Shown: positions 34,314 to 54,367 of the stretch, piece by piece
Numbering within the stretch: position 1 is the stretch's first letter
How the letters are laid out: every line of letters starts with the position of its first letter
NCBI GenBank assembly: GCA_002840405.1
Contig: PHAR01000002.1
Span: forward strand, 310,001-374,000
Length of the DNA stretch: 64,000 bases
DNA from: Deltaproteobacteria bacterium HGW-Deltaproteobacteria-8
GTDB lineage: Bacteria > Desulfobacterota > Desulfovibrionia > Desulfovibrionales > Desulfovibrionaceae
Reading direction: 5' to 3'
The notes under the pieces: model-generated
Told to the model about the DNA's origin: nothing
The model's database searches: none
Seen by the model: only the letters and a program-made list of their open reading frames with translations
Program-made: the position numbers and the translations under genes

Positions 34314-35998
34314 ATGCTTGTGATACGAACACTGGCGCTCATTGCGGGGCTTGTGCTCCTGGCTGCCTGTGGCCAGGGCGGGGGAAAAGATGCGCCTTCC
34401 GCTTCCGCACGCCCCGCAGACGCCCCGGCCTCCAGCCAGAAAGACGCCCTGGCCGCCAAAGTGGGCCACCCGCAACCCGGAGGGCGCCTGGTGGAGGCGA
34501 CCATCGGCGAGCCGAGCAACCTCATCCCGCCCCTGGCCTCGGACGCCGCATCCCATGAGATCGCGGACCTCATCTATGTCGGCCTGCTCAAGTTCGACAA
34601 GAACATCAACCTGGTGCCGCTGGCTGCCCAGTCCTTCGAGATTCTGGAGGACGGGCGGCTCCTCAAGTTCACCCTGAAGAAGGGCATCCGCTGGACCGAC
34701 GGGCAGCCGCTCACCGCGCGCGACGTGGAGTTCACCTACAAGCTCATGATCGACCCCAAGACGCCCACGGCCTATGCCGAGGACTTCCTGGCCGTGAAGG
34801 AGTTCAAGCTCACTGGCGAGTATTCCTTTGAGGTTCGCTACGACAAGCCCTTTGCCCGGGCCCTGGTCACCTGGGCCAGCTCCATCCTGCCCCGGCACCT
34901 GCTGGAGGGCCAGGACCTTTTGAAGACCCCGCTGGCGCGTCAGCCCGTGGGCGCGGGGCCATACATCCTCAAGAGCTGGACCGCGGGCGACCGGCTGGTG
35001 CTGGTGGCCAACCCGGACTATTTCGAGGGCCGCCCCTACATCGACGAGGTGGTCATGCGCGTCATCCCGGACCAGTCCACCCAGTTCATGGAACTGAAGT
35101 CCGGCAACCTGGACGAGATCAACCTCTCGCCCCAGCAGTACCTGTACCAGACCGAGGGCCAGGACTGGACGGCCAATTACCGCAAGTTCCAGTACGTGGC
35201 CTCGGCCTACACCTACCTTGGGTTCAACCTGAGGAGCAGCCTTTTTTCGGATGTGCGCGTGCGCCGGGCCATCAACCACGCGCTGAACAAGGACGAGATC
35301 GTGCGCGGGGTGCTCTCGGGCCTGGGCCAGGCCGCTGGCGGCCCCTACAAGCCCGGCACCTGGGCCTACGACAAGGCCATCCCGGCCAACGAGTACGACC
35401 CGGCCAAGGCGAAGAGGCTCCTGGCCGAGGCCGGGTGGACGCGCCGCACGCCGAACGGACCGCTTGTGGACACGAGCGGGCGGCCCTTCGCCTTCACCAT
35501 CCTGACCAACCAGGGCAACAGCCAGCGCATCAAGACGGCCATCATCGTCCAGAGCAGGCTCGCGGCGCTGGGCATCCAGGTGGAGATCCGCACCGTGGAG
35601 TGGGCCGCCTTCATCAAGGAATTCGTGGACAAGGGCCGCTTCGACGCCATCATCCTCGGCTGGACCATCACGCAGGACCCGGACCTCTTTGATGTCTGGC
35701 ATTCGTCCAAGGCCGTGCCCGGCGGGCTCAACTTCGTGGGCTACAAGAATCCGGAGCTGGACGAACTGCTGGAGCGTGGCCGCAGGCTGCTCGACCAGAA
35801 GAAGCGCAAGCCCATCTACGACCGCATCCAGGAGATCCTGCACCAGGACCAGCCCTACTGCTACCTCTACGTGCCCATGGCCCTGCCCATGGTCCACAAG
35901 CGCGTGCAGGGCATCGAGCCCGCGCCGGCAGGCATCGCCTACAACTTCATCCGCTGGTGGATACAAGGGGCCAAGCAAGGCCCGGAGCTGACACAATA

Positions 35999-35999
<1 letters not shown>
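34314..35999 (+). CDS. Extracellular solute-binding lipoprotein, family 5 (peptide/nickel ABC)
   Basis: This is the periplasmic, lipid-anchored binding protein of an ABC importer of the oligopeptide/dipeptide/nickel class (561 residues). The leader ends LAAC with the lipidated cysteine at 19. SBP_bac_5 marks include PSNLIPPLASDAASHEIADLIYVGLLKFD, SFEILEDGRLLKFTLKKGIRWTDG, FLAVKEFKLTGEYSFEVRYDKPFA, VGAGPYILKSW and RVRRAINHALNKDEIV. ATG 34314 is preferred because AGAGGA lies six bases upstream; ATG 34311 is three bases closer. No permease or ATPase gene is adjacent, so it is an orphan. Its stop overlaps the rel start (TAATG at 35997-36001). Confidence 0.9.
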
Positions 36000-38170
<2,171 letters not shown>

Positions 38171-38221: not shown

Positions 38222-39454
38222 CTAACGGCTGGCGCGGAAGCGCTCCGTGCCCAGGGCCAGGCCGTCCCGGCCGGGCAGGGTCACCAGCAGTCTGCGCATC
38301 CGTGCCAGGCGTTCCTTGGCGGGCGGGTGCAGCGCCGACCAGACGAGGGGCGGCTCCTGCCGCTTGTGGATGCGCCCGGCCTGCTCAATGCTTTCCACGG
38401 CCTTGGGCATCTGCTGCGGGTCGTAGCCCGCGCCATAGACCATCTCAATGGCGGCCAGGTCGGCCGCGAACTCCTGGTTCTTGTCGATGCCCTGGGTCAG
38501 GTCCGTGGCCAGCAGGTCGTCGAGCATGGCGGCGAAGAGCGGGCTGTGCACGCCCGCCTGGTCCACTGTTCCTCCGGCCTGGAAGAATTGGGAGTGCAGA
38601 GCCTTGGCCCAGAGGTGGGCGAGGGACGCGTGCGCTGTCTCGTGCGCCAGGATGCAGGCCAGCTGGGCCTCGTTGTCCAGGGCGGCGAGCAGGCCGGTGC
38701 TCAGCATCACGATGCCGCCAGGCAGGCTGAAGGACACCGGCTCGGGCAGGTCCAGGACCACGGCCCGGAAGTGCGGCGTATTCCCCGGCGCGAACCGCGC
38801 CACGGCCAGACCAACCAGATTCACATAGCGCTGCAACGCGTTGCCAAAGGCGGGCTTGGCCAGACGCGGCACCACCCTGGCCGCGAGGTTCAGGCCCACC
38901 TGTCGTTCGGCCTCGCCGCCGGAAGGCGCTGCCGCGTGCAGCTTGGGGAAGGTGGCGCGCCTGCCCAGGTTGCGCTGCCGCCCGCGCGCGAACTCGCCGA
39001 TGCCGCCCTGCTCCAGGAAGGCGTCCAGGTCGTCGGGCGAGAGGCGCAGGTCCAGCACGCTCCACAGGGCCTCGCTGCCCTGGGGCCGGACCGGCACCGG
39101 CACGGTGGACCTGGAGCTGCGCGAGGTGTCCGCCGCCTCGGCCAGGATCAGGGTCTTGGGCGCGGCGTCGAAGAGGTCGGCCAGGGCCGGGGGCTGGGGC
39201 GAGGAGGCAAGATGCCCCTGGTAGACCCAGCCCTGCTGTCCGCCGGGTTCGCTGAGCCTTGTCCAGGCGCCCTGGACGTACAGGGGCTGGACAACGGTGC
39301 CGCGCGGGAGGCGCAGCACGACCTCGGCCTCGGCCGAGCGCCAGACGCGCACCGGGGCCTGGTCCACGCTGATCCACAGGGCCGACTCGGCCTGCGCCAG
39401 CGCGGGCAGGGCGAGCAGGACGGCGATAACCAAAGCGCGCAGGAATTTCGACAT
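38222..39454 (-). CDS. Exported SH3/M48 zinc metalloprotease
   Basis: This is a periplasmic protease of 410 residues. Residues 1-22 are a cleavable signal peptide (cut after AQA), and 27-85 form an SH3b-like domain (VRVWRSAEAEVVLRLPRGTVV). Residues 170-405 form an M48 catalytic domain with zinc ligands H271 and H275, catalytic E272 (HETAH) and E328 in NQEFAADLAAIEM. No membrane helices follow, so it resembles BepA-type envelope proteases, here with an SH3 targeting module. It is the last gene of the four-gene minus-strand operon, starting eight bases after the CHAT gene stop. I infer that it works in the same pathway, for example removing misassembled outer-membrane proteins. Confidence 0.85.
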   Translation of the reverse strand: MSKFLRALVIAVLLALPALAQAESALWISVDQAPVRVWRSAEAEVVLRLPRGTVVQPLYVQGAWTRLSEPGGQQGWVYQGHLASSPQPPALADLFDAAPKTLILAEAADTSRSSRSTVPVPVRPQGSEALWSVLDLRLSPDDLDAFLEQGGIGEFARGRQRNLGRRATFPKLHAAAPSGGEAERQVGLNLAARVVPRLAKPAFGNALQRYVNLVGLAVARFAPGNTPHFRAVVLDLPEPVSFSLPGGIVMLSTGLLAALDNEAQLACILAHETAHASLAHLWAKALHSQFFQAGGTVDQAGVHSPLFAAMLDDLLATDLTQGIDKNQEFAADLAAIEMVYGAGYDPQQMPKAVESIEQAGRIHKRQEPPLVWSALHPPAKERLARMRRLLVTLPGRDGLALGTERFRASR

Positions 39455-39462
39455 GGCGCAGC

Positions 39463-42400
39463 CTACCTGTAGTCACCGGACAGGGTGAACGCGCCCCAGT
39501 AGCCGGGGTGCGGGAAGCGGTTCTTCACGTGCAGCATGGCCCGGCGCAGGCTCTCGGCCTTGGGCCGGGTCTGATACTCGCGGTAGAACTGCTTCATGAG
39601 CATGGCGGTGGAGATGTCGCTCACCCTCCAAAGACTCGAAATCAGCGCGTGGGTTCCGGCGTACAGGAAGGCCTGGTTCAGCCCCTGGACCTCGTCGCCG
39701 CTGCTGACCTTCCCCAGGCCTGTCTGGCAGGCCGAGAGCACGATCAGATCCGCCGTGATCTTGAGATCGAAGATCTCGGCGGCGTCCAGGTCGCCGTCCT
39801 TGTCCTTCTTGTCGCTGACCAGCTTGAGCGCCGAGAACAGCGGGTTCACGGGGTCGAACTCGCCGTGGGTGGCCAGGTGGATGATGCCGAATTCGGCTAT
39901 GTGCTCTGAGACCCAGCTCTTGGTGGCCTTCTCGCGGGTCAGGGCGGTCATGTTCGGGTAGTTCCAGGCCAGCGAGCCCACCTCGCGCTCGGCAAAGGGC
40001 AGCTCCAGGGACTGGTCGTGCAGGTCCGGGTTGCCCACGGCCAGCACCTTGGTGTTGCGCTCGGTCTTGCGCCGCTCCAGCGTGAACTTGAACACGCTGG
40101 CGGATGGCAGCTGGAACAACGGGTAGCGGTCCAGCAGGCTCGACTCGCCGTCTGAGAGCGTTGCGAAGGCCAGGGTGTGCAGGCAGTCGTGGGGGATGAT
40201 GCCCAGGACCTTTACGCCCGTGAGCTTGGGCAGCACCGGGGCGAGCAGCAGCTTGTACAGCTCCCTAGAGTGCGCCTCCACGGGCTCCAGGTTCTGGAGC
40301 ATGCGCCGGTAGGTCAGGATCATCCGGCCCAGGGCGCCCCGGCCCAGGCGCGTGCGCGTCAGGTCCACGCGGTCGTGGTCCAGGGTCCAGCAGAGGATCT
40401 CGTTATCCGTGATGTAGTAGCTCAAAAGCGCCACGCCCGGCTCAAGCATCTTCTGCACCTCGGGCAGGGTCAGCGGGTTCACGCTGACCAGGCTGGCGAT
40501 GTCCGGGCGGCTGGCCTGGATCTCCAGCAGGATGTCGCGGTAGTCGTCCTGCAGGCGCTTGACGCCCTTGGCGTAGACCTCGCGTTCATTGGTGTTCTGG
40601 GCGCTGGCCAGGAGCGACTCCTGCTCGCGCAGGCGCGCGCGCACAGCGGTGATGCGCTCGTACAGGGCCTGGTCTTCCTTGCGCTGCGGGCTTCTGCGCT
40701 TGTTGCCCAAAAGGTCGATGAGGTTGCGGGCGCGGGAGCGTTCGGCCGTGCGGAAGGCCTCGGACACATCGCCCATGTCGGCCAGCAGGGTCACCAGGTC
40801 CTCGTAGACCACGGCCTTGTCGGCGATGAAGCCGTCCTTCAGCTGGTCAACTTTGAGCTCGGAGCGCATGGCCTCGATGACGTCCACGGCCTGGATGAGC
40901 AGGGCCTTGGCCTCGGGGCGCTTGCCTGCTGAGATGTCCAGCCGCGCCAACCCGTGCAGGGCGCGCCACTGGCTGTCGCGCAGGCCCATGCTGCGGGCCA
41001 GTTCGTCGGCCTGGGAGAAGGAGGCCTTGGCCTTGTCGGCCCAGGTCTTGCCGGAAGCGGAGAGCAAAAGCTGGGCCTCTCCTATCGCCAGCAGGATCTT
41101 GGCCTGGTTGATGCGGTTGCCCGTGGCGGCCACGATGCCAAGCGCCTCGTCCAGCAGGGGCAGGGCCTTCTTGGGGTCGCCCATGCGAATGTATGTCTGC
41201 GCGATGTTGCGCAGGTCGTAGGCGATGGCCCAGCGTGAGCGGATGGCGCGGTCGATGGTGAGCGCCTCGCCCAGGGTCTTGAGCGCCTGCTCGCTTTTGC
41301 CCATGTCGCGCTCCACGAGGCCGCGATTGTTCAGGGTGGTGGCCACCTCGTCCTGGCGGATGCGCAAGGAGCGGGCCAGGGGCAGGGCCGCGTCCAGCTC
41401 GCGCACGGCGCGGTTGTGGTCGCCCAGGCTCCACCACAAAAGCCCGGCGGTGTTGCGGGCGATGACCTGCTCCAGCACCCAGCCGCCTGCTTCGGCGCTT
41501 TTGAGCACCTGGCGCTGCAGGTCGAAGGCCTGCTGGAAGCGGGCCTGCTGCCAGGCGTTGTTGGCCTGTTCGATGACGATGCGCGCGCGCAGGCGCTCAT
41601 TGACTTTGTCGGCGCCAGTGAGCTTGAGCGCCTCGGCGTATTGTGTCTCGGCCTCGCTGAAGTTGCCAATGAGCCGCGCGCAGCGGCCCAGGTCGAGCAT
41701 GGCCTGGGCCATGTCAGCCTTGCGGCCCAGGGCGGTGTAGATGCCAAGCGCCGTGCCATAGGCCTCGCGGGCCTGGGCATACTGGGACAGCCGCAGGTCA
41801 TAAATGCGGCCGATGCTCATGTACTGCTTGGCCACCAGCTCCCTGGTCCCGGCCTTCTGCGAGAGCTTGGCCGCGCCCTCGAAGCGCTTGAGCGCGCGGT
41901 CGAACTGGATGGCGTTCTCCAGCACCGCCCCAAGGCTTGACATGGCCTCGATCTCCTTGGGCGCGAGCTCCAGGTTGGCCAGCATCTCCGTGGCCTGCTC
42001 CAGCACAGGGATGGCCTGGGCATACTGCTCCATGCGGGCGTAGACCAGGCCCAGGCGCATCAGCGCCTCGGCGTGGGCCGGTGTGTCCGGCTTGGTCTTG
42101 GCCACCAGCAGGGCCAGTTCCTTGGCAAAGGCCAGGGACTTGTCGAACTGCTCCGAGGCGTAGGCGCTCTCGCGGCTGTAGGACAAGAGGTCGGGCAGAT
42201 AGGTGTTGAACTGGCTGGAGGAACGGGCCACGCGCAGGGCGTTCTCGAACAGGGCCAAAGCCTGCGGGAAGCGCCCGGCCTTGAAGTCCTCCATGCCCGC
42301 GCGCACGTACCTAGCGAACTGGGTCACGGCGAAGGCCCCGGCCTCGCGGGCGTTCAGGCCCGGATCGCCCAGCAGCAGCCAGGGCGCGGCAACCGTTCCA

Positions 42401-45400
42401 GACGCCTGGGCCTTGGCGCGGGCGTCGGCCGCAGAGTCCTCGGCATAGGCCGCCAGGAAGGAAGCGTCGAAACGGGCGTCCTGCGCGGCCAGCACGGACG
42501 GCACGCCATAGAGCGAGAGCAGGTGCGCCACCAGGGGCAGGTCCTCGGCCGGAACCTGGGTCAGCACGGCCAGGGACACATCCTGCATGCAGGCGGCCAG
42601 CCCGGAGAGCGGCAGGGGCTCGCCGTTTGTGGGCGACAGGGCCAGGAAGCGCACGGGCAGCTCGTCCTGGCGGCTGGGCGCGGACTGGGACTGGCGTGCC
42701 GGGATTCCGGCCACCAGGGTGTGGGCCTGGGATACGGCCTGGGTAAGGCCCGGCGAGGAGAGCGGCATGGCCTGGGCCGAAAAGGCCTTTTGTCCGGCCA
42801 GGGCGGGCGGCATTGCGCCAGAGCCTGCACCAGACTTCGGCCCTGTGATGAACACGAGGTTCCGGCGGAAGGGTTTGCGCGCCTTGAACGAGCGCACCAG
42901 ATGCGTGCCGCTCAAGGCCACGGTCTGGGCAAAGCGCAGGTCCTGGGGCGACAGGGCGGTCAGGTCCTCGAAGGCCAGCAGGCGGCGTTCACCCTGGCCC
43001 AGGGCAGGGAGCACCGGGCGCGGGCCAGTGCCCAGGGCCACGGCGCGCACGGAGTCGGCGTCCAGGCGGAAGGCCGCCCAGCGCAGGGCGTCGCGCCGGG
43101 GGGGGGGCAGGGCGATAATCCGGAAGACACTTGAACCCTTGGGCAGGGTCTCCATGAGGTCGATGGCCTCGCTGGGCGCGGCCAGGAACAGGCCAAGGGC
43201 TCCGGGCGCGTCCAGCCTGGCCAGGGATTTCCCGGCCTCGGCCTTGAGCGCGCCCAGGCGGGTCATGAGCTGGGCGTGGCGGGCGCGCTGCTCGGCGGAG
43301 CCGCCAACAGCGGCCTCGGCAGCGGCTGCGGCCTCCAGCGACAGCCCGTGCAGGATGGTCAGCCAGTCCTGCTCGGCAATGCCAGCCCCGATGCGGGCCA
43401 CGCCGGGCAGGGACTCGCGGTCTGGCCCCAGGTCGCGCGCCAGGATCTCCTCTTCCTGGGCCAGGCGGCGCGACAGCTCAATGCGGTCGTCGTCCTTGAA
43501 GCCCTTGGCGTCCTTGGCGGCGGCCAGGCGGGCCTTGAGGTCGCGGATGGCCAGCAGGCGTAGGGATGTGCGGCGCAGGAGCCCGGCCTCAGGCCCGGTG
43601 GGCTGGGCCACGTCGAGGCGGCCCATGCGGCCCACGCGCTCCAGCTCGGACAGGCGTTCGGACAGGTTGTACGCGTCCTCAGCCTTGCCGGAATCAATGA
43701 GCGCTGCCACCAGGGGCGCAAAGGCCCCGGTGATCTCGCCCGCGCCGCAGGCGGCCTCGTCCAGGGGCAGGGCCTGGACCACGGACAGGGCCTCCTGGAG
43801 GCGTCCAAGCCCGGCCAGGGCACGCCAGCGCAGGCCCGGCAACAGCCCCTGGTCGGCCAGGGTCAGGGCGGCTTTTAGGTGTTCGGCGCGGATATCGTCC
43901 TCGCCCAGGCGTAGGCTTAGGTCAGCCATGTTCAGGTGCAGGGCGGCGTTCAGGGCCAGGGCCCGGCGGCTGCCTGCGGGCGGATTGTCCTTGAACCAGG
44001 CCAGGCCCTCGGACAAGCGCTGCCCGGCGCGGGAGAGCGCGTCCATATGCAGCGCCGTGCTGCCAGCGTCCGTGGCAGGCAGGCGGTCGGCCTGGGCCAG
44101 GTCGTGGGCGGCCATGATGTTCTGGAAGGCCGGAGCCGAGAGCGAACTCCCGCCCAGGAGCGGCTGGCGCAGGGCCTCGGCCGCCAGGGCCTCCAAACGG
44201 CGCAGCTCGGCCAGGCGCGGCGCGAAGTCCTTGCCCTCCACAGGCAGGCGTTCCAGGGTCGCGGCCAGGTCGATGACGTTGAGCGAGGCGCTGACCGGGT
44301 TCTTCATCGTCAGCGACAGCTCGGCCGAGCGGCGGAAGCGCTCGAAGGCCAAGGCTTCGCTGCCCAGAGAGGACTCCAGCAGCCCGGCCCGGTGCAGCAA
44401 GAGCGCCGCGCCAAAGGTGTCCTGGGGGGCCACGTCGCCCTTCTCGAAGGCGCTGGACTGGCGCTCCACCAGCCCCAGGGCCTCGCGCGGGCGGCCGCGC
44501 TCCGTGGCGATGCGCGACAAGAAGGCCTCGGCCAGGCGCAGTTCCTGCTCGGCGCTGAAGCCGTACGCCGCCTGGGAGGCCGTGGCCTTGTCCAGGCTCA
44601 CGTCCAGGTCGATGTTTATGAGGCCCTTGCCGGGCCTGCCGCCCTTCTTGTCGGCCACGCCAAACTTCTTCACCAGTTCCGGGATGCGCCGGAAGCCTGT
44701 CTCGGCGGCCTCAAGCAGCCGGTCGCGGTCGCGGCCCGTGGTCAGCCCGGCCTCCATGTATGCGCAGTAGGCAACCGAGCGCTGGTTGGCCGTGAGGTTC
44801 TGGTTCAGGCCCAGGGCCGTGTTCATGGCCAGCGCCTTCTCAAAGGCCTCCTTGGCCTCGCGCCAGCGCCCGGCCTCCTGGTAGGCCAGGCCCAGGCGGT
44901 CATAGAGCTCGGCGCGGAGCTGCACGAAGCGCGGCGGGAAACCCAGGGCCTCGCGCACCTTCCCGACCATGACGGCCAGCGTCTGCATGGACGCTTCCCG
45001 GTCCTTCGGCATGAGCGGCGGCAGCTCGCTTATGATGCGTTCCTGCTCGGAGAGCAGCGTTTCCACGGCCTTGACGTAGACGCTCCAGGTGGGGTCTGGC
45101 GGCGGCCCGGCGGGCTTGATGCTGGCCTCGAAGAGGCTGTTGTTCAGGTCCGACTGGCGCGTGGCCAGTGCCTTGGCGTGATCCGCCTGGTCGCTTGCCC
45201 CATCCGGGTGGCCCAGGGCCGGGGTCAGCACGCGGTCGAAGACGTGCTTGTTGATGCGCCCGAAGATCTCGGAGGCGAACTTGGGCTGGATGCGGCTCTC
45301 CACCAGCTCCAGGGATTTGGCGAAGGCCTCGATGGGCTTGTCGCGTTCGCGCGCCTGGAAGGCCGAGGTGCCGAGGCGCTGGTAGAAGAGGATTTCGGTC

Positions 45401-48108
45401 TCCGGGTTGTCGAAGGCGACCTTGGAGTCCTGGCGCTTGCGGTATTCCTCGAAGGCCTGGGCGTACTGGCCGAGCAGGAAGTGGATGTTGCCGATGTTGA
45501 GGTCGAGGTTGGCTGCGTTTTCCGGGTTCTGCTCGCGGCTGTTGAGGAAGCGGGCGCGCTGGTAGGACTCCAGGGCCGCCTCAAGCCGTCCGCGTTCGCC
45601 GTGCACGGTCTCCAGCACCTCGTCGATGTAGCCCAGGGTCTGGTGGAAGTACTCCACCTGCCCGTTCTTCTGGATGGCCCGGCGGATGAGGTCGCGCGCC
45701 TCCAGCAGCGGGGCCTTGCCGTCCAGGTAGGTCATGGTCAGGCCCAACGCGTAGAGCAGGGTGGGGTCGCCGGGCTTGGCAACAAGCTTGGCCCGGTAGT
45801 CGGCCAAAGTGGCCGGGATGGTCTTCAGCGCGGCCGAGGCGCGGATCATGCCCCTGTGCGCTGGCACGAAGTCCGGGTCGTCGCGCAAAAGCCCGGCGAA
45901 GATGGCCCGGGCCGACGGCACCTCGCCGATGCGCAGCAGGTAGTCTCCGGCTGCGGTGGACTTGCGCAGGTGCGCGGCTTTGGCCAGGCGGTAGAGGCGG
46001 TCCTCGTACGGGCGCGAGGCCATTTCGGTCTCGTAGAGGTCCAGCGCCTGGTGGAAGCGCTCCTCGCGGTACAAAATCTCGGCCAGGGCCAAGCGCGCGG
46101 CGGCCACCTGCGTGGAGATTTGCGCAGAGGTCTGCGGCGTGTCCTGTGGCGAATTTTTGGCCCCGTCCAGGGCCTGGCGGTAGGCGTCCTTGGCCTTGGA
46201 CCACTCGTCGGCCGCGTAGTAGATGTCGCCCAGACGGTTCAGCGCGCCCAGGGAGAGCTTGGGCAGTTTCATGCGGTTCTGGCCGGAGAGCAGCAACAGG
46301 GCCTGGGTCTGGTCCTCGGGCTTTGGCCCGGCGGCCTCGATTGTGCGGTCCAGCACGCGCGACACGGCCAGGTCAGCCCAGGGGCCGTTTGCCGGGTAGT
46401 CCTGGATGACCCGGGCGTAGAGGGGCAGCACGGCCTGCACCTGGCCGATGCGGCCATAGGTCTCGGCCTTGAGGAACAGGGCCTCGGCAGTCTGCTCCGG
46501 TGCGGCCCCTTGCACGGCCAACTGGGCGTCCAGAATGCGCAGGGCCTCGCCCAGGGCCTTGGAGTCGCCGGCGCCGAGCAGGAGCCGGGCCTGTTCCAGG
46601 CGGGCCTGGGCCTGGACGCGGGCCTGTTCCTGTGACTTGGCGGGCTGGGCGATGAGCACGGCGAGGCTCTTCAGGCCCTTCTGCAGCGCGGCCAGCCTGC
46701 CCTTGTCGTTCAAAGCCTGGCGGCTCTCGGCGGCAATGGTCAGCAACAGGGCGCGGATGCCCGCAAAGCCGGACTGCGGCTGGACGTTTAGGGCTGCAGC
46801 GGCATCAAAGGAGCGTCGCGCGGCCGCGTCCAGGCCGAGGGCCTCGTACTGGCGGCCCTGATTGAACAGGGCCTGGGCCGCGATGGCTTTGTCGGCGTCT
46901 GAACCGCTGATTCCGGCGGCGCGCGCGGCCTTGTCCAGGGCCAGAATGACCAGGTGCCGCTCCACGGGCAGCTGGCTGCTCAGGGTCTCGGCCAGTGCCA
47001 GCAGCTCCCCCGCGCTCTTGTCCGGGATCTCGCCCTCGGGCGGCAGGCTCCAGATGTTGGCCGGGCCACTGCTTCCGGCGTTGCGCGCGGCGATGGAGTA
47101 GAGCTTGCCCGCAGCCATGAGCGGCGAGAGGTCCGCGCCCTGGGCCGAAGTCAGCGGCTCGGCCCGTCCACCTTGGACCGGCGCGCGGGCGATGACGGTC
47201 TGGATGCCGCCCTGGCCCGAGAACTGGCCCGATGCCACGCCGAAGGCCGGGGCCGTGGTGAAGAGCAGGGCCGCGCCGTCCGTGGTGAAGCGCGGGTACG
47301 CCTGGGGCAGGGCGTCGGGCGTGAGTTTCCTGGGCTCGCCGTCAGTCCCTCCGGCTGACAGAGCCATGACAAAGATGGAGCTGACGCCCGTGCGCAGGGA
47401 CACGAAGGCCAGCCTGCGGCCATCGGGCGAGAGCGTCGGGTGAGCGGCGTCGCCCTTGGTCTCGATGACGCGCGGCGCGGCCTTGGGGCTCCCCAGGTCC
47501 AGGGCCACGATGTGCCGGACCGGCTCGCCCTCGGCGCGCTGCTGGAAGTACAAGACCTTGCCGTCCGGGCTGAAGCAGGGCGCGGCGTCCTCGGTGTCGC
47601 GGCCGGTGAGCTTCCGCGCCTGGGCCTTTGGGTCGGTCAGGTCGAGGAGAAAGATATCGCCCTTGACGTCGTCCTCCGCGCCCACAAAGGCGATGCGGCG
47701 GCCGTCGGGCGAGAGGGCCGGGGATTGGCGGTCGGCCAGGGCCGAGGCCAAGCGCCGGGGCAGCACGCTGAGTTCGTTGTCCAGGCTGCGCAGCCAGAGT
47801 TCGGCGTAGCCGTCGCCCTGGCGCGTGTAGGCCAGCCACTTGCCGTCCGGGGTGATGTCCATGTGCAGCACGTTGCCGGTCTCGAAGCTGACCTGCACGG
47901 GCTGGTTGACCTCCAGACGGCGCGGCGCCACGCGTATGGCCGGGGCGCGCAACGCCTCCTCGGCAATGGCTTTGGCCGACTTGGTTTCCGAAGCCGCAAG
48001 TGTCGCAGGAGCGGCTGGCGCACCTGCCAAAAGTGGACTCGGCCAGGGCAGCAGGGCCAGCGCCAGGGCCGCCCCCGCCAGGAGATGTCGGGAGGGGCGC
48101 GCGTTCAT
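39463..48108 (-). CDS. Giant exported TolB-propeller/TPR/CHAT (caspase-like) protein
   Basis: This is a 2,881-residue protein. Residues 1-30 are a signal peptide (hydrophobic core LLAGAALALALLPW), so export is predicted. Residues about 70-370 are a TolB-like beta-propeller (repeated TPDG/SPDG blade motifs at 86 and 133 and further on). Residues about 400-1600 and 1930-2500 are helical TPR arrays. At about 1640-1920 lies a CHAT-like domain without a catalytic pair. The C-terminal 330 residues (2550-2881) are a complete CHAT peptidase: the N-terminal EPGVALLSYYITDNEILCW strand, the catalytic His2748 in HLATHGEFD, Cys2794 in LSACQTG, and the end motif FLYAGTHALISSLW. ATG 48108 overlaps the lipoprotein stop by ATGA. 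CHAT proteases are known from Craspase and gasdermin systems, where they are cytoplasmic; here it would act outside the cytoplasm. Confidence 0.85.
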   Translation of the reverse strand: MNARPSRHLLAGAALALALLPWPSPLLAGAPAAPATLAASETKSAKAIAEEALRAPAIRVAPRRLEVNQPVQVSFETGNVLHMDITPDGKWLAYTRQGDGYAELWLRSLDNELSVLPRRLASALADRQSPALSPDGRRIAFVGAEDDVKGDIFLLDLTDPKAQARKLTGRDTEDAAPCFSPDGKVLYFQQRAEGEPVRHIVALDLGSPKAAPRVIETKGDAAHPTLSPDGRRLAFVSLRTGVSSIFVMALSAGGTDGEPRKLTPDALPQAYPRFTTDGAALLFTTAPAFGVASGQFSGQGGIQTVIARAPVQGGRAEPLTSAQGADLSPLMAAGKLYSIAARNAGSSGPANIWSLPPEGEIPDKSAGELLALAETLSSQLPVERHLVILALDKAARAAGISGSDADKAIAAQALFNQGRQYEALGLDAAARRSFDAAAALNVQPQSGFAGIRALLLTIAAESRQALNDKGRLAALQKGLKSLAVLIAQPAKSQEQARVQAQARLEQARLLLGAGDSKALGEALRILDAQLAVQGAAPEQTAEALFLKAETYGRIGQVQAVLPLYARVIQDYPANGPWADLAVSRVLDRTIEAAGPKPEDQTQALLLLSGQNRMKLPKLSLGALNRLGDIYYAADEWSKAKDAYRQALDGAKNSPQDTPQTSAQISTQVAAARLALAEILYREERFHQALDLYETEMASRPYEDRLYRLAKAAHLRKSTAAGDYLLRIGEVPSARAIFAGLLRDDPDFVPAHRGMIRASAALKTIPATLADYRAKLVAKPGDPTLLYALGLTMTYLDGKAPLLEARDLIRRAIQKNGQVEYFHQTLGYIDEVLETVHGERGRLEAALESYQRARFLNSREQNPENAANLDLNIGNIHFLLGQYAQAFEEYRKRQDSKVAFDNPETEILFYQRLGTSAFQARERDKPIEAFAKSLELVESRIQPKFASEIFGRINKHVFDRVLTPALGHPDGASDQADHAKALATRQSDLNNSLFEASIKPAGPPPDPTWSVYVKAVETLLSEQERIISELPPLMPKDREASMQTLAVMVGKVREALGFPPRFVQLRAELYDRLGLAYQEAGRWREAKEAFEKALAMNTALGLNQNLTANQRSVAYCAYMEAGLTTGRDRDRLLEAAETGFRRIPELVKKFGVADKKGGRPGKGLINIDLDVSLDKATASQAAYGFSAEQELRLAEAFLSRIATERGRPREALGLVERQSSAFEKGDVAPQDTFGAALLLHRAGLLESSLGSEALAFERFRRSAELSLTMKNPVSASLNVIDLAATLERLPVEGKDFAPRLAELRRLEALAAEALRQPLLGGSSLSAPAFQNIMAAHDLAQADRLPATDAGSTALHMDALSRAGQRLSEGLAWFKDNPPAGSRRALALNAALHLNMADLSLRLGEDDIRAEHLKAALTLADQGLLPGLRWRALAGLGRLQEALSVVQALPLDEAACGAGEITGAFAPLVAALIDSGKAEDAYNLSERLSELERVGRMGRLDVAQPTGPEAGLLRRTSLRLLAIRDLKARLAAAKDAKGFKDDDRIELSRRLAQEEEILARDLGPDRESLPGVARIGAGIAEQDWLTILHGLSLEAAAAAEAAVGGSAEQRARHAQLMTRLGALKAEAGKSLARLDAPGALGLFLAAPSEAIDLMETLPKGSSVFRIIALPPPRRDALRWAAFRLDADSVRAVALGTGPRPVLPALGQGERRLLAFEDLTALSPQDLRFAQTVALSGTHLVRSFKARKPFRRNLVFITGPKSGAGSGAMPPALAGQKAFSAQAMPLSSPGLTQAVSQAHTLVAGIPARQSQSAPSRQDELPVRFLALSPTNGEPLPLSGLAACMQDVSLAVLTQVPAEDLPLVAHLLSLYGVPSVLAAQDARFDASFLAAYAEDSAADARAKAQASGTVAAPWLLLGDPGLNAREAGAFAVTQFARYVRAGMEDFKAGRFPQALALFENALRVARSSSQFNTYLPDLLSYSRESAYASEQFDKSLAFAKELALLVAKTKPDTPAHAEALMRLGLVYARMEQYAQAIPVLEQATEMLANLELAPKEIEAMSSLGAVLENAIQFDRALKRFEGAAKLSQKAGTRELVAKQYMSIGRIYDLRLSQYAQAREAYGTALGIYTALGRKADMAQAMLDLGRCARLIGNFSEAETQYAEALKLTGADKVNERLRARIVIEQANNAWQQARFQQAFDLQRQVLKSAEAGGWVLEQVIARNTAGLLWWSLGDHNRAVRELDAALPLARSLRIRQDEVATTLNNRGLVERDMGKSEQALKTLGEALTIDRAIRSRWAIAYDLRNIAQTYIRMGDPKKALPLLDEALGIVAATGNRINQAKILLAIGEAQLLLSASGKTWADKAKASFSQADELARSMGLRDSQWRALHGLARLDISAGKRPEAKALLIQAVDVIEAMRSELKVDQLKDGFIADKAVVYEDLVTLLADMGDVSEAFRTAERSRARNLIDLLGNKRRSPQRKEDQALYERITAVRARLREQESLLASAQNTNEREVYAKGVKRLQDDYRDILLEIQASRPDIASLVSVNPLTLPEVQKMLEPGVALLSYYITDNEILCWTLDHDRVDLTRTRLGRGALGRMILTYRRMLQNLEPVEAHSRELYKLLLAPVLPKLTGVKVLGIIPHDCLHTLAFATLSDGESSLLDRYPLFQLPSASVFKFTLERRKTERNTKVLAVGNPDLHDQSLELPFAEREVGSLAWNYPNMTALTREKATKSWVSEHIAEFGIIHLATHGEFDPVNPLFSALKLVSDKKDKDGDLDAAEIFDLKITADLIVLSACQTGLGKVSSGDEVQGLNQAFLYAGTHALISSLWRVSDISTAMLMKQFYREYQTRPKAESLRRAMLHVKNRFPHPGYWGAFTLSGDYR

Positions 48109-48689
48109 TTCTTCACCGTCCATGTCCCGTTGGTGGCCTGCAACTTTTCACCTGGTTTGGCGGTGTCTTCGGCGAGCTTGGCGAACACGGCGCGCACCTT
48201 GGGCAGGTCGGCCGGGGTGAGGGAGGCGTTGGTATCGATGGCCCGGCGCATGATGGTGTTCCGGGCGCGGTTGACCTCGGCCAGCACGGCGTCGAACTCC
48301 TGCTGGCGGTAGCGCGCGGCAAAGTCCTTCAGGTCGTCCGGGGCGTGGTCGCGCGTGAGCGGGAAGGCCTTGAGCAGGCCCTGGTTGTCCTCGCCCACCC
48401 AGCCCAGGCGCTTGAAGGCGTCCACGTCGTCGGCATGGAAGCTGGTGACCTGCATGGCGCTGATGGCGTCCTGCTGCTCGCCGCTCTTGCGCGGCGGGGT
48501 CTGAATGCGCCCGAGGGGGTCCACACCGCGCACCGAGGCCACGAGCAGCGTCTCCTCGGACAGGGAGTTGTAGGAGCCCAGGATCTGGTTCTCCAGCGAG
48601 GTGCGCTCGCTGGCCACGTTGACCTTGACCTCGGCCAGGGTGCAGCCGGACAGAACAACAAGGGCGGCAGCCAGGATCAGTCGTTTCAT
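48105..48689 (-). CDS. DUF1318 (YdbL-like) lipoprotein
   Basis: This is a 194-residue lipoprotein with a leader ending LSGC, lipidated cysteine at 16. The C-terminal 100 residues follow the DUF1318/YdbL pattern as I recall it: a G-x-V-G-E box (GWVGEDNQGLLK), a helix with VNRARNTIM, and the closing PGEKLQATNGTWTVKK where E. coli YdbL has P-G-E-x-x-x-x-x-N-G-x-W. The N-terminal part after the lipid cysteine is YnbE-like in position (short, charged, CTLAEVKVNV). In E. coli, YnbE and YdbL act with AsmA-like YdbH in an inter-membrane lipid bridge. Both neighbours overlap this gene by ATGA (48105-48108 and 48686-48689), so the products are made in fixed ratio. Confidence 0.72.
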   Translation of the reverse strand: MKRLILAAALVVLSGCTLAEVKVNVASERTSLENQILGSYNSLSEETLLVASVRGVDPLGRIQTPPRKSGEQQDAISAMQVTSFHADDVDAFKRLGWVGEDNQGLLKAFPLTRDHAPDDLKDFAARYRQQEFDAVLAEVNRARNTIMRRAIDTNASLTPADLPKVRAVFAKLAEDTAKPGEKLQATNGTWTVKK

Positions 48690-51600
48690 GGGGTGACTCC
48701 TTCTTGGGCGGTGGTTCCGATGACCTTGAGCCTGCCAGGAGGGCCTGCCGGATCGCGGCAGATGCCACCGGCCGAGGCGGCGTCAAGGATGGTGCCGAGG
48801 GCCTGGACCGGTGCCAGGGCCTTGGTCAGTTGTTTGCGGAGGGGCAGGTTGCCAACGGGCAGGCGGTCGATGCGCGGCAGGTCGAGCCGGAAGCCCTTGA
48901 CCTCCAACTCGCCGGACAGGCTCAGGTTGCCATAGGCCAGTCCTAGGCGGACGAAGCGCGGGTAACCCACGTCCATGAGGCGGCGCTGCTGCACGATGGT
49001 CTCGTTCTGTTCGTCCGGGTCCAGGGCGTAGAGCATGCGCTCAAGGGTGCGTGGGCCGATCTTGGTGATGTCCGCGCGCATCGACATGCGCTGGAGCAGG
49101 GCCTCAGGGTCAGGTGTGAGCGGCACGGACAGGCTCACGCGACCGGAGGTCTCGGCCTGGCTGCCCAGGTCCTTGGAGGCCTTGTCCGGGAACAGGCGCG
49201 TGGGGTCGATGTCGGTGAAGGCGAGGTCGGCCTCAAGGCTGTAGCTGCCGCGCCCCCCCTTGATGACCGTGCTGCCCTGGATGTTCCCGCCGAGCAGTCC
49301 GGCCCGGTAGGAGCGCAGGGCCGGGAGCGGGCCGCTGGTGTCCAGGCGCAGCAACACGTCGTGCAGGGAGAGCGGCAGCGCGCCGGACTTGAGCTTCAGC
49401 TGGCTGAAGCCCAGGCTGCCGCCGCCGCTTTGAAATTCGTGCAGGACGGTGCGGGCGAAATCGTTGCTGCCGCCACGGTTTGCGCTGGCCGTGGGGAATA
49501 GGTCGAAGACCTGCTCGGACAAGGGGGGCTGAACGTTGTTGGCGGCCGCGGCGCAGCGCAGGCCGGGCGACAGGGCGTAGCGTTTGTCCAGGCGCAGGGA
49601 GCTTACCAGGCCGCTGATGGACAGCTCCGGCCCCAGGCGCAGGTCCAGGCCCGGGCTGAGCAGCCGCGCGGACAGGGCCAGGCTGCGGCCGCCGGACAGC
49701 CTGGCGTCGAAACCGGCCTCCAGGCGGCCCTTGCCGGAAACGCCCTGGCCGGACTTGCCGGGCAGCGCCTGGAGTCCAGTCTTGAGGCCCATCGTGATGT
49801 CGGCGCCAAGGGTTCCGTCCACATGCTCGAGAATGGCTGCCAGACGGTCCTGATCGTGGTCCAGCACCTGATCCAGGCGGTCCAGGGTCAGGCGCAGGTT
49901 CTGGTCCAGCTCCAAGCCGTCCAGGTGCAGCACTTCCGTGACCTGCACCGAACGCAGGTCCTGCTGGGCCGCGTTGAGGGTCAGCAGGCCGCGCAGGGGC
50001 TTGGTCAGGCGGCCTGTGCCCGGCAGTTCGCTGAGCGGTCCAAAGGTCAGGGAGCCGCTGAGGCTTGATTCGCGCAGTCCCGCCGTGCTGGTCATGCGCA
50101 GGGGCTTGGGCGTGGTCAGCCCACGCAGGCGGAGCGTCTCCGCTGGTCCTCCCTTGCTGGCCAACGGCCAGTCCAGAGACACCTCCGAGAGCTTCAGCAC
50201 AGCCTCAAGCTCCTTGAGGAAACCCAGGCGGGCAAGTTTTTGCGAGAGCCTCTCAGGCTTGGGAGTGGGGGCCTGCTTCTGCGGCAGGTCGGCATTGAGC
50301 TTCCAGTCCAGGGCCACGCCGCCCGAGCCCTTGGCCTTGGGCGGGAGCAGGGGGGCAGCCAGGGCCAGCAGTTTCTGCACGTCCAGGGTCAGGCCGCCGC
50401 TGCTTTGCACGGCGCTGCCGCCAAGGCTTCCGGTGGCCTGGCAGCGCAACGCCGGGCCGACATCCAGGCTGAGCTTGGCGTCAGAGACCTTGGCGATACC
50501 CACCGGCGAGCCGCTCAGGCGGATGTCCGGAGCCGTGAGGCGCAGGGTGACCGGAGCCTCCACCGGACGCTTGCCGGGCTGGGGCACGCGCACAAGCGGG
50601 ATGTCCAGGACCAGGTTGTCCAGGCGGACCGTGGCGGTCTTTGTGGCCGGGAGGTCCGCGTGCAGTGACAGGCTGTGGGTCAGTGCGGGAATCTGTGCTT
50701 TGCTGGGCGCATCAAGCCCCTGGACCTCGCCCCCGGCCTCCAGGCTGACTGCGCCGAGGACGCCGAACAGGGCGAGCGGGTCCTGGGCCAGGGCATCGAT
50801 CTTGACGGCCAGGCGGGAGAGGATGGCGCGCTTCACCGTCAATGGGGACTTGCCTTGCAGGCGCAGCCCGTCGAGCTCCAGCACAGCGCTGGCGTCGAGC
50901 TGGCCTTGGCCGCTGCCGGGCAGCGTTGCCTGGGCCGAGTCCAGGCGCAGCGATGCCTTGGCCAGGCTTAGCCGTTCCGGACCGGAGGCGCGGGTGATGC
51001 CCTCGGCCTTGATGATCAGACCCTTGACGCTGGCCTCCAGGTGCGGCCTGGTCGCATCCGGTCCGGGCTTCTCCGGCAGCGTGGCCTGAAACCCGATGTC
51101 CTCGGCGTCGACCGTGCCCGAGCGGATGCCCAGGCCAGGGGGCAGCAGTCCGCGCGTGACGGCCAGAAGCTCGTTGAGTTGCAGTTGCAGGGGCCGGATG
51201 TTCAGCGAAATTCTAGTCAAGCCCTGGTTCAGACCCGTAATCTCTCCCTGCCAGTCTGCGGTGCTCTTGTTCAGCAGGCGGAGCTTTCCCGGCAGGCGCA
51301 CGGTCCCGGCCTTAAGGTCAAATCTGGCCTCTTGCAGCATGTTCAAGTTCAGCGGGCCAACGGCCTTTGCGCCCAGCGGGCCGCCAGCAGCTCGCAGGGA
51401 GTCGGCAAAGGCCACCAGCCCCAGGTCCAGGTGGTCCGGGTCGGGCTGGGCGAGTGTCAGCCCCAGGGCCACGGAGCCGGAGGATTCGGGCAGGGAGGTC
51501 CCGGCAAAAGGCTTCAGGAGCGTCGTCAGCTGCCGCAGATCCAGGCGCAGGTCTGTCTTGAAGCCTTTGGCCACGCTGCCCAGAGACGTCAGGTGCAGGC

Positions 51601-52420
51601 CTGGGGCCTCGGCCTCGGCCGTGAGCCGCGCCTGGGCCGGGGCCAGCAGCCCGGCGGCGTCCACCAGGTCTTCGACCTTGGCCTGCAGCTTGAGCGGAGT
51701 CAGTTCCCTGCCGTCAAGCACGACCTTGAGTCCGGCGTCCAGGCTGGCCGGCCCGCTGGCGAGGCCGGGCACGTTCAGGCGCAAAACCACGTCGCGCAGG
51801 TCGACTTGGTGCTCGACGACGTGACTCGGATCGGCTTGTCTCTGATCCAGGGCGTTGCCGCTGGCGGGCAGGATCAGGCGCACGGCGATGTCCAAGAGGT
51901 CCATGGAGACATGCGCGTCGCCGCTCCTGGGGGTGGCCTTGAGGCCCTGGCGCAGGGCGGCGAGGCCGTCCTTGAGCCGGGTGGGCAGCGGTATCGCGAG
52001 AGGCGCGGCAGGGGGCTTGTCTGGGGGTGCCAGGCGCTTGCGCAGGCGCAGGCCGGTCAACTGCACGTTCAGGCGCAGGTCGCGGCGCAGGGCCGGCAGG
52101 ATGTCGATGCCGACGTGCAGGCGCTCCAGGGTGCAGAGGAAGGATTCGTCGTCCAGGCCACCGCGCCCCACGCGCAGCCCTTCGACGCGCAGGCCGTCGG
52201 ACCAGCTGAAGGACAGCAGGCGCAGCGAGGCGGGCTTGTCCGTGGCCGAGGCCAGGCCCTGTTCAACATTGGTGCGTGCCCAGTCAGAGGAAACCACGAG
52301 GGGAACGGCCAGGATGGTTACCGAGAGCAGCAGGAGCGCGGCGGCAAACCCCAGCAGTGATCGGCGCACCCATGTGCGTTGAAGGAATAATTTCGTCGGC
52401 TCCGGCCTGGGTTCGGACAT
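48686..52420 (-). CDS. AsmA/YdbH-like inter-membrane protein
   Basis: This is a 1,244-residue protein with one N-terminal membrane helix (about 21-43) and a very long, beta-rich, low-complexity-like extracytoplasmic body. The body has alternating hydrophobic strands typical of AsmA/TamB/YdbH beta-groove proteins, which carry phospholipids from the inner to the outer membrane. Visible family-like features are the start [14 protein letters not shown] just after the helix and repeated segments of the type L-x-L-x-G-L-x-L with Q/K/P. The last 150 residues ([18 protein letters not shown] and [19 protein letters not shown]) may be the tip that meets an outer-membrane partner. ATG 52420 has GGAG six bases upstream. 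It is the first gene of the four-gene operon. Confidence 0.75.
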
Positions 52421-52522
52421 CAAGGCTCCGTTCTGTCCGCATGCGCGGCTCGGTCTCTCACGCGTGGCAACGGACAAGCTGATTCAACAGGCATTTTGCA
52501 AGAACCACACTGCGGTTGCAAC

Positions 52523-52551
52523 ATAATAATCGGCAGACACAAACTGGTCCA
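52523..52551 (-). promoter_or_regulatory. Putative promoter of the AsmA/CHAT operon
   Basis: On the minus strand, -35 TGGACC (52551-52546; four of six) and -10 TATTAT (52528-52523; five of six) are 17 bases apart. The predicted start lies about 95 bases before ATG 52420. The leader crosses an imperfect palindrome (TTGCAAGAACC / GGTTGCAA) at 52496-52521 that could be an operator shared with the divergent MCP gene. Confidence 0.45.
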
Positions 52552-52600
52552 TGATTTGCTTATGGCTCTACCACTTGTTTATAGAACAGAAGGAGCAGCC

Positions 52601-54367
52601 ATGGTCATCAGTGTCCGTTTGAAGTTTGCTATTTCAATTGTTATCGGTGTGTTAACATGTGTCTGCGGTTTGTTGCTCCTGGCCGCGCCCACTCGTGGAG
52701 ATTTGGCCACCCAGGCGCTGTCCTTGACATTTTTGCAAGGTCTCGTGGTCGATGGCAGCCCTTATCTAGGTGTTCTGCTTCTTGCTGCGGGGCTGGCGCT
52801 CTCCTGTGTTGTCTACGTATCAAGCCAGAATGATACCATTTTTTTTAAGTCGCTGCGCGCCAGGCTGGCGGCTTCGGTACAGTTGTCAGGGCTGACAAAA
52901 ACGATGTCCACTGAAGACAGTTCTGTCATGTCGAGGCAGCTGCTGATGTCCGCCTTGGATCAGCTGGAGACTGCCGCCAGCCTGGAAGCCGAGCTCCGCT
53001 CCAGTCTCGCCCGGCAGGAGCAGGCCACTCAGGCCGCCAGGGATGAGGCTCTGGTCATCCGCGAAAGCTCTGAGGCCTCCCGGCGTGACGGGCTGCTCTC
53101 TGCGGCGCGCACTTTGGGCGTGGCCATCGAGGGAATCCACGGGGCCAGCGAGAACCTGCGCGCCCTGTCGCAATCCGCCGGAAGCGGCGCCAAGGACCAG
53201 CAGCGGCTGGTGGCCGAGGCCGTGACGACCATTGACGGCCTGGACTCGGCCCTGGTGCAGATGCAGAACGGCTCGGACAGAACGGTGTTGCAGGCCCAGT
53301 CGGCCCGCGACCGCGCCCTGGGCGGGGCCAAGGTGGTGGACGAGACCGTGGAGTCCATTCGCCAGGTGGAGCGCAAGGCCGAGGATCTGGCCGAGGTGGT
53401 GCGCGACCTTGGCAGCCAGGCCAGAGACGTGGAGCGCATCATGGAGGTCATCAGCGACATCGCCGACCAGACCAACCTGCTGGCGCTGAACGCAGCCATT
53501 GAGGCCGCGCGCGCTGGCGACGCCGGGCGAGGGTTTGCGGTGGTGGCCGACGAGGTTCGCAAGCTGGCCGAGAAGACCATGAACGCCACCCGTGAGGTGG
53601 CCAGCCGCATCGAAGGCATCCAGAACGGCGTGGACCGCACAGGCAAGGACATGGAGGAAACCTCCCGGCGGGTCGACCAGGCCGTGACCCTGGCCCAGAG
53701 TTCCGGGGAGTCCCTGCGCGAGATCGTGGACCTGGCCGGGAGCACTGCCGCGCACATCCACGAGATCGCCGAGGACACGCGCCGGCAGACCGAGACAGGT
53801 GAACGCGTCAGCCGCATCGTGCGCCAGGTCAGCAGCATCTCCGAGTCGAGCTTCGAGGGGGCGCAGAACTCGTCCCTGGCCGTGGACGTCCTGCTTGAGC
53901 GCGTGGTCGAGCTGGAAGCCATGAACGCCGTGTTCCAGCTCATCGGCGGCGGCAGCATCCAGAAGATCGTCGAGGGCATGGCTGGACAGGCGGCCGTGCG
54001 TTCCATGCGCCGCGACGACCAGGAGCTCGCCATGCGCGAGGCGCTCAAGCGCAACCCCTCGTTCGAACTGCTGTACATTACCGATGGCCGAGGCCGCCAG
54101 ACGGTGTCCAACATCGGGCGCGGTCCGTCCGGCCTCAGCGCCGATGGCGGAGCCGTGGGCAAGGACTGGAGCACGCGGGCCTGGTTCCGCCAGCCGGTGG
54201 ACATGCGCGGGACCGTGGTCTCGGAGGTGTATGTGTCCAGCGCCACCGGGGAGAACTGCATCACCGTGTCCACGCCGCTCAGCACGGAATCCGGCGAGAT
54301 CCTGGGCGTTCTGGCTGCGGACATCAACCTGGGCAAGGCCTCCTCCGCGCATTCCCGCGCCATCTGA
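52601..54367 (+). CDS. Methyl-accepting chemotaxis protein with C-terminal Cache-like domain
   Basis: This is a chemoreceptor of 588 residues. Two N-terminal membrane helices (about 8-29 and 54-73) are separated by only about 24 residues, so there is no real periplasmic sensor domain. The cytoplasmic signalling domain is intact, with the conserved tip at about 281-330 ([20 protein letters not shown], then [16 protein letters not shown]). After it, residues about 480-585 form a Cache/PAS-like domain ([16 protein letters not shown], then [22 protein letters not shown], then [10 protein letters not shown]). Cache domains are normally periplasmic and N-terminal; this one would be cytoplasmic. AAGGAG lies five bases before ATG 52601. 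It is likely to signal through the CheW encoded at 1999. Confidence 0.9.

Follow-up and report, generated by a model that had tools for sequence, protein, structure and literature searches.

The building and regulation of inter-membrane phospholipid bridges is an open question, and further factors in complexes of the AsmA superfamily are called unclear in a report on them (PMC12977461). In Escherichia coli, the bridge genes stand in the order ydbH-ynbE-ydbL and encode an AsmA-type protein, a lipoprotein and a DUF1318 protein, respectively. In E. coli K-12 without TamB and YhdP, which is sensitive to bile salts, this locus restores resistance (PMC8593681). Here, we describe an operon of related layout in a 64,000-nucleotide stretch of contig PHAR01000002.1 (positions 310,001 to 374,000, hereafter the window) from Deltaproteobacteria bacterium HGW-Deltaproteobacteria-8, whose genome comprises 3.5 Mb in 13 contigs. 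The minus strand carries four head-to-tail genes, coding for an AsmA-like protein, a DUF1318 lipoprotein, a giant CHAT protein and an SH3-M48 protein. As in E. coli, an AsmA-type gene is followed by one for a DUF1318 protein, which here adjoins it. In contrast with E. coli, a single DUF1318 lipoprotein replaces the separate YnbE and YdbL, the 1,244-residue AsmA-like protein is unmatched by sequence to YdbH (879 amino acids), and the operon includes a CHAT protease.

Envelope protease complexes with activity tied to phospholipid transport are described for Pseudomonas aeruginosa (LbcA-CtpA, where LbcA is an outer membrane lipoprotein) and E. coli (NlpI-Prc), and overproduction of TamB, YhdP or YdbH is reported to lower the activity of LbcA-CtpA (PMC12569750). 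CtpA belongs to the carboxyl-terminal processing proteases and degrades cell-wall endopeptidases, whereas the giant joins repeats and a caspase-like protease in one chain encoded beside a bridge. With TPR-CHAT (Csx29) of Craspase, the giant shares TPR repeats and a CHAT domain with a His-Cys dyad; Csx29, however, is an RNA-activated CRISPR partner, while the giant is predicted to be exported and combines a propeller with a pair of CHAT-fold modules. The giant does not reach the Csx29 model of NCBIfam (NF041237; 51.3 versus 300 bits). In separase, helical repeats are joined to a pseudo-protease and to an active protease with a caspase fold. The giant resembles it in this layout, its C-terminal CHAT domain being assigned from sequence, and differs in the several hundred TPR residues that separate its two modules, in its predicted export and in its partners. 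No separase family model of Pfam matched the giant up to E 0.1.

The AsmA-like/DUF1318/giant trio is a conserved envelope module. Relatives were surveyed in 119 genomes of the same family, 395 of the same phylum and 195 of a second phylum, that of a metagenome-assembled genome deposited as Myxococcales; the second phylum differs from the first because its 195 searchable genomes are fewer than the own-phylum sample. Within the family, DUF1318 occurs in 34 and CHAT in 23 of the 119 genomes. Full-length giants were found in six, which are those of the window's own genus, relatives of the AsmA-like protein in the same six, all of that genus, and the operon order is kept in the five relatives. A search of the 395 genomes with the C-terminal 845 residues of the giant returned 30 genomes at E up to 1e-60. 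The giant class was set at 521 bits or more (n = 13), the next match having 361 bits and a frame of 1,188 amino acids. Since the contig ends within the giant in three genomes (G356, G425 and G212), ten are evaluable, and DUF1318 adjoins the giant in nine of these. An AsmA-like open reading frame (ORF) lies upstream of all eight giants whose contig extends there, the one in G144 being missed by phmmer and assigned by position, length and 18% aligned identity.

The survey was also run from DUF1318, which occurs in 98 of the 395 genomes. CHAT was sought in 96 of these, the other two (the window's genome G000, and G029) being covered in the family search, and was present in 27 (22/80 and 5/16, one of the five below the Pfam cut-off). 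In seven of the 27 (G415, G144, G395, G343, G384, G180 and G443), DUF1318 has a giant CHAT gene on its own strand at a distance of 7-8 kb, and these seven span six families (f97, f27, f88, f49 twice, f47 and f62). In the remaining 20, CHAT and DUF1318 are not side by side; three of the 20 are giants, two of them with contigs cut at the giant. A second DUF1318 exists elsewhere in G144, G395, G384 and G180, and the giant-linked copy scores lower in three of them and higher in G144. In the second phylum, the giant is found in 13 of 195 genomes, two of which (G506 and G522) have contigs too short to show its partner. AsmA-like and DUF1318 genes stand ahead of it in five (L171-L175). Three of these DUF1318 proteins were scanned, of which one passes the cut-off of 27 bits (32.3) and two fall just under it (24.2 and 26.4); the other two were recognized from the shared motif. 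With the window included, the AsmA/DUF1318/giant order is common to 21 operons of two phyla, and the distances of the trio co-vary across them (rho 0.91-0.95, equaled in 0 of 999 permutations, with no species-tree control). The co-occurrence anticipated in the original prediction is seen across families and in a second phylum, and the genes are not scattered. Among 15 named contigs with giants, four are deposited as Humidesulfovibrio and the rest as Desulfovibrio, Desulfocurvus or less precisely. No published description of an AsmA-DUF1318-giant CHAT module was found in the open-licence literature searched, which is weak evidence of absence; as far as these searches reach, the module is undescribed.

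In G075 and G106, from another genus of the same family, a lipoprotein TPR-CHAT of 988 and 990 amino acids directly follows AsmA-DUF1318. These proteins show only a remote similarity to the giant (74 and 64 bits in phmmer), and the other four sampled genomes of that genus have no DUF1318 match. Either CHAT proteins were recruited to this bridge repeatedly, or the association is ancient. The arrangement with a short lipoprotein TPR-CHAT gene behind AsmA-DUF1318, at 6823-13799 of L101 and 6808-13725 of L106, is a second form of the association.

The propeller/TPR/CHAT layout expected for the giant was found by Pfam as CHAT, PD40 and many TPR domains. Its propeller scored 73 bits with TolB, under the equivalog cut-offs, and matched solved TolB at E 4e-9. 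The longest ORF (P0002) begins at 48123 and has 2,886 amino acids; in its numbering, the His2748 and Cys2794 of the original prediction are His2753 and Cys2799. This dyad is conserved in 35 of 35 aligned C-terminal CHAT domains of the giant family, and since identity to the window giant over the last 900 residues drops as low as 27%, the conservation is not trivial. A crude rule, which looks at hydrophobic stretch, lipobox and AxA, was used throughout in place of a trained predictor to call export-type N termini in giants and in SH3 and M48 proteins. Such a hydrophobic N terminus was seen in 20 of the 21 giants checked, the exception (L090) having an over-extended start, and some giants have lipoboxes (L145, L146 and several of the second phylum). 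In L136 (5582-14121) the giant gene is broken into three ORFs, by a frame break or an assembly error.

The interior of the giant holds a second CHAT-like module. Residues 1470-1950 aligned with the C-terminal CHAT module (2400-2886) in hhalign at 96.5% (E 9e-10), while four segments outside both modules scored no more than 1%. Among the other segments, 1100-1580, part of which lies in the internal module, reached 85%, the narrower 1560-1950 gave 36% (E 4e-4), and 1940-2420 gave 89% over the 21 residues that it has in common with the target. The AlphaFold2 (AF2) model of the module has a predicted local distance difference test score (pLDDT) of 90.4. In Foldseek, CRISPR-TPR-CHAT chains led (7zoq, E 5e-4; 8d9f) and separase 9hma was third. 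A second look with VIA-align gave separase 5u1t (Z 18.7, 288 residues, 3.7 Å), TPR-CHAT 7y85 (Z 17.4, 275 residues, 3.6 Å) and the transmembrane anti-sigma factor DdvA (8rw5, Z 15.1). The last is an anti-sigma factor by its entry title, in which it differs from the giant, and we know of no bridge partner for it. By eye, the hhalign alignment of the window giant places Pro opposite the catalytic His and Val opposite the Cys. A single-profile hidden Markov model for the internal copy, applied to 32 giants, counts against the assignment, as it had no match in the window protein and 16 others. It gave E <0.001 in four, namely L150 (1e-17; His to Ser, Cys to Val), L168, L143 and L167, and E 0.015 or worse in 11 more, including L171 (E 0.37, insignificant; His and Ile at the dyad positions). 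Because this model finds no copy in the window giant, the pseudo-CHAT claim there rests on the profile-profile alignment and the predicted fold. These suggest that the giant pairs a pseudo-protease with a protease, the second CHAT/separase-fold domain being apparently new here. The internal module and the fusion of SH3 with M48 were both missed by the original prediction.

The DUF1318 lipoprotein had been assigned in the original prediction, and its Pfam score (33.4 bits against a cut-off of 27) supports that assignment. Its lipobox is followed by a VKVNVASERTSLENQ segment, which we propose as a possible stand-in for YnbE. All 18 giant-linked DUF1318 rows have the lipobox Cys and the motif ERT-x-[LM]E-x-Q. 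A separate short YnbE lipoprotein was not seen in the window operon, whose lipoprotein is the DUF1318 protein. Six loci of relatives do have a short lipoprotein-like (YnbE-like) ORF of its own between the AsmA-like gene and DUF1318. The giant-linked DUF1318 lipoprotein would merge the roles of YnbE and YdbL.

The AsmA-like protein had no Pfam, NCBIfam or PADLOC match up to E 0.1. It is called AsmA-like because of its length, its N-terminal hydrophobic segment, its predicted all-beta fold and its position ahead of DUF1318. The hydrophobic segment, read at about residues 20-42, is likely an inner membrane anchor. For residues 45-1244, AF2 with 18 sequences gave an all-beta model rich in long strands (pLDDT 81; predicted template-modeling score, pTM, 0.54). 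With this model, Foldseek ranked ApoB100 and LPD-3 at the top, followed by phosphatidylethanolamine-bound Atg2 (E 0.04, probability 0.97). The beta-groove that had been predicted is favored rather than established by the all-beta model, in view of its pTM and a porin-dominated second look. In hhalign against three DUF1318-linked AsmA-like sets from the same family, the AsmA-like proteins of the operon scored 97.4% (117 N-terminal columns), 83.8% (51) and 71.9% (143). Elsewhere in the window's genome, PF05170 matches C5:197355-199160, C3:434796-437561 and, below the cut-off, C3:67057-67686; this profile search misses the AsmA-like gene of the operon, and TamB (PF04357) was not found by profile in that genome.

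We tentatively read this conserved module as one in which the giant is a quality-control protease checkpoint on an inter-membrane AsmA-like bridge. The proposal builds on the autoinhibition of TPR-CHAT, which resembles separase and seems inhibited until binding of target RNA rearranges and activates it (PMC9729208), and on the bridge-dependent activity of an envelope protease (PMC12569750). The AsmA-like protein would be anchored in the inner membrane and span the periplasm as a beta-groove lipid bridge, which the DUF1318 lipoprotein would dock or assemble at the outer membrane, the work of YnbE and YdbL in E. coli. The giant would sit on this bridge, with its TolB-like propeller and TPR superhelix binding the bridge or an outer membrane partner, and its internal CHAT-fold module may be a dead pseudo-protease that serves docking or autoinhibition. 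Failure of the bridge or a change in lipid flow would prompt the C-terminal CHAT domain to cut a specific substrate, and SH3-M48, where present, may clear the products or damaged outer membrane proteins. We infer the carriage of lipid by the bridge, the activity of CHAT in the periplasm, the contact of the two parts, the trigger and the substrate. A more far-reaching and doubtful version makes the giant a periplasmic separase-like machine, in which a single exported chain of ~2,900 residues, one of its CHAT modules dead and the other live, senses and cuts an inter-membrane lipid bridge or its tether. If true, bridge-mediated lipid flow would come under regulated proteolysis, a control layer that we know of in no bridge-like lipid-transfer system. 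The operon suggests an unstudied policing of the outer membrane. Since it would equip a bridge with its own caspase-like protease, occurs in two phyla and has an invariant dyad, it makes the question of how such bridges are built and regulated addressable by deletion or mutation of one gene. It would also place a separase-type pair of pseudo-protease and protease outside the bacterial cytoplasm.

Several results weigh against the checkpoint reading. In six second-phylum genomes (L165-L170), the gene that directly precedes the giant on the same strand is of the MCP type, not AsmA-DUF1318; MCPsignal and HAMP domains were found by Pfam in the three scanned (L165, L166 and L167), and L168-L170 were assigned by position and similar ends. 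The giant therefore has at least two kinds of partner and, in other bacteria, may be coupled to a protein of chemoreceptor type. In the own phylum, the giant of G178 lacks an adjoining AsmA-DUF1318 pair, its DUF1318 being on another contig. Downstream of the giant, M48 was not found in L127, L130, L133, L146, L149 and L150, nor in second-phylum L141 and L165-L175, where L167 and L171 have <1 kb of sequence; the giants of L127, L130 and L133 have 68-71% identity in the best segment. For the AsmA-like protein, the second-look alignment of its model with the PDB was dominated by porins and TonB-dependent barrels at Z about 9-12, often with a large root-mean-square deviation, a list that was discarded as a guide to AsmA-like membership. 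An hhalign profile of 18 operon AsmA-like proteins scored weakly with E. coli K-12 AsmA (35%) and YhdP (3%) and gave no support for a match to TamB (0.4%) or YdbH (0.2%); the C-terminal parts alone, at 22% or less, gave no support either. YdbH membership, part of the original prediction, is thus not shown by sequence, and with no Pfam match either, such homology is not claimed. Exported CHAT proteins are not exceptional and look common in this phylum, as 13 of 15 non-giant CHAT ORFs from 14 regions (L120-L126 and L153-L159) have an export-type hydrophobic start, several with lipoboxes, by the same crude rule.

The MCP-linked form makes a wider sensor role the main rival. In it, the giant would be mainly a periplasmic sensor of envelope stress whose CHAT domain cuts a signaling protein once its propeller/TPR part senses damage, with the bridge and the MCP-type receptor among its inputs. 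We consider this possible but rather unlikely. The MCP-type genes upstream of six second-phylum giants argue for it, as do the divergent MCP-type gene next to the AsmA-like gene of the window, the DdvA match of the pseudo-CHAT fold (8rw5, Z 15.1) and the proposal that ECF54 sigma factors are under proteolytic control, which was drawn from neighboring carboxypeptidase, subtilase and CHAT proteins (PMC8999054). Yet the ORF lists of own-phylum operons, part of whose ORFs were scanned, showed neither sigma nor anti-sigma factors, the giant is partnered more often with AsmA-DUF1318 in the own phylum (9/10), and no MCP-like ORF was seen by eye in the ORF list beside the operon in L089. That the giant is an assembly scaffold, which chaperones and positions the AsmA-like bridge with CHAT cleavage as rare self-processing, seems unlikely. 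Its very long TPR/propeller architecture, its co-variation with the AsmA-like and DUF1318 proteins and the persistence of the predicted pseudo-CHAT fold after loss of the dyad would suit such a role. A scaffold is harder to reconcile with a catalytic dyad that all 35 of the 35 sequences retain, even at identities as low as 27%, and with the many DUF1318 loci of the family that have an AsmA-like gene without an adjoining CHAT gene, which indicate that ordinary bridges do not need one.

A suicide or anti-phage effector, akin to the gasdermin-linked or Craspase CHAT proteases, is highly improbable. The CHAT domain itself and PADLOC matches to TPR (50.8 bits) and BovA (18 bits) point that way, but these matches are weak, and defense was rejected as the leading view. 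Moreover, the giant has an export-type N terminus and co-varies with the bridge, the other three operon proteins have no PADLOC match, and the operon is kept beside a RelA/SpoT-type gene in five genus-mates. A coincidental operon of unrelated envelope genes is scarcely credible: CHAT and DUF1318 do lie mostly apart (20 of the 27 CHAT-positive genomes), but the identical order in 21 operons of two phyla already contradicts it.

The SH3-M48 protein is accessory to the core trio. The proposed four-gene operon holds in that the trio is conserved, while SH3 and M48 may be fused or separate and are missing in some loci. They form a single fused gene in the window and eight related loci and two adjoining genes in eight others, and M48 cannot be essential because it was not found downstream in several loci. 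In Pfam, the window protein scored 69.4 bits for M48 (cut-off 20.3), 24.9 for SH3_4 (24.1) and 25.8 for SH3_3, below its cut-off of 27. Its likening to BepA was not upheld, since it falls far below the BepA equivalog of NCBIfam (NF052400; 48.2 versus 570 bits) and several loci lack M48 downstream. An HExxH motif was seen in 14 of the 15 M48 rows checked. The homolog at 15253-16686 of L091 lacks HExxH in the called frame, and in L145 the SH3 gene is located at the contig end.

Features of the operon and its flanks (positions in the window; residue numbers refer to P0002)
Feature	Position	Strand	Basis or remark
AsmA-superfamily-like protein	48686-52420	-	1,244-amino-acid ORF; N-terminal hydrophobic segment; predicted all-beta
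DUF1318 (YdbL-type) lipoprotein	48105-48689	-	194-amino-acid ORF; PF07027; lipobox LSGC
Giant exported protein, TolB-like propeller - TPR - pseudo-CHAT - TPR - CHAT	39463-48108	-	2,881 amino acids from ATGA start
TolB-like beta-propeller, PD40 repeats, about residues 85-310	47194-47871	-	Pfam, NCBIfam, solved-structure match
Internal pseudo-CHAT, residues 1470-1950, without His-Cys dyad	42274-43716	-	hhalign, AF2 and structure alignment
Catalytic CHAT domain, residues 2618-2884	39472-40272	-	PF12770, 209.2 bits (cut-off 24)
Catalytic His2753 codon	39865-39867	-	
Catalytic Cys2799 codon	39727-39729	-	
SH3 + M48 metalloprotease fusion, export-type N terminus	38222-39454	-	410-amino-acid ORF; Pfam; accessory
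SH3 domain of the fusion	39209-39364	-	Pfam
M48 domain of the fusion, HETAH motif	38291-38833	-	Pfam
RelA/SpoT gene, convergent flank of operon	35957-38170	opposite to operon	Pfam scan
MCP-type chemoreceptor gene with Cache domain, diverges from AsmA-like gene	52496-54367	+	Pfam scan

The ORF coordinates confirmed the joints that had been read between the four genes, with 4-base ATGA overlaps at 48686-48689 and at 48105-48108, and a gap of 8 bases from 39463 to 39454. Every operon product has an export-type N terminus, a lipobox or a membrane anchor. On one flank, the RelA/SpoT-type gene adjoins the operon in all five genus-mates too; on the other, the divergent MCP-type gene recalls the MCP partner of the second-phylum giants. 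An Rfam scan of the window at gathering scores gave one transfer RNA as the sole RNA match. Among the non-giant CHAT regions, two exported CHAT genes lie close together in both L121 (3336-10493) and L122 (2825-10158), and the two genes of L121 are separated by one for a secreted protein whose N terminus looks caspase-like (RRTALVIGNSAY, by eye).

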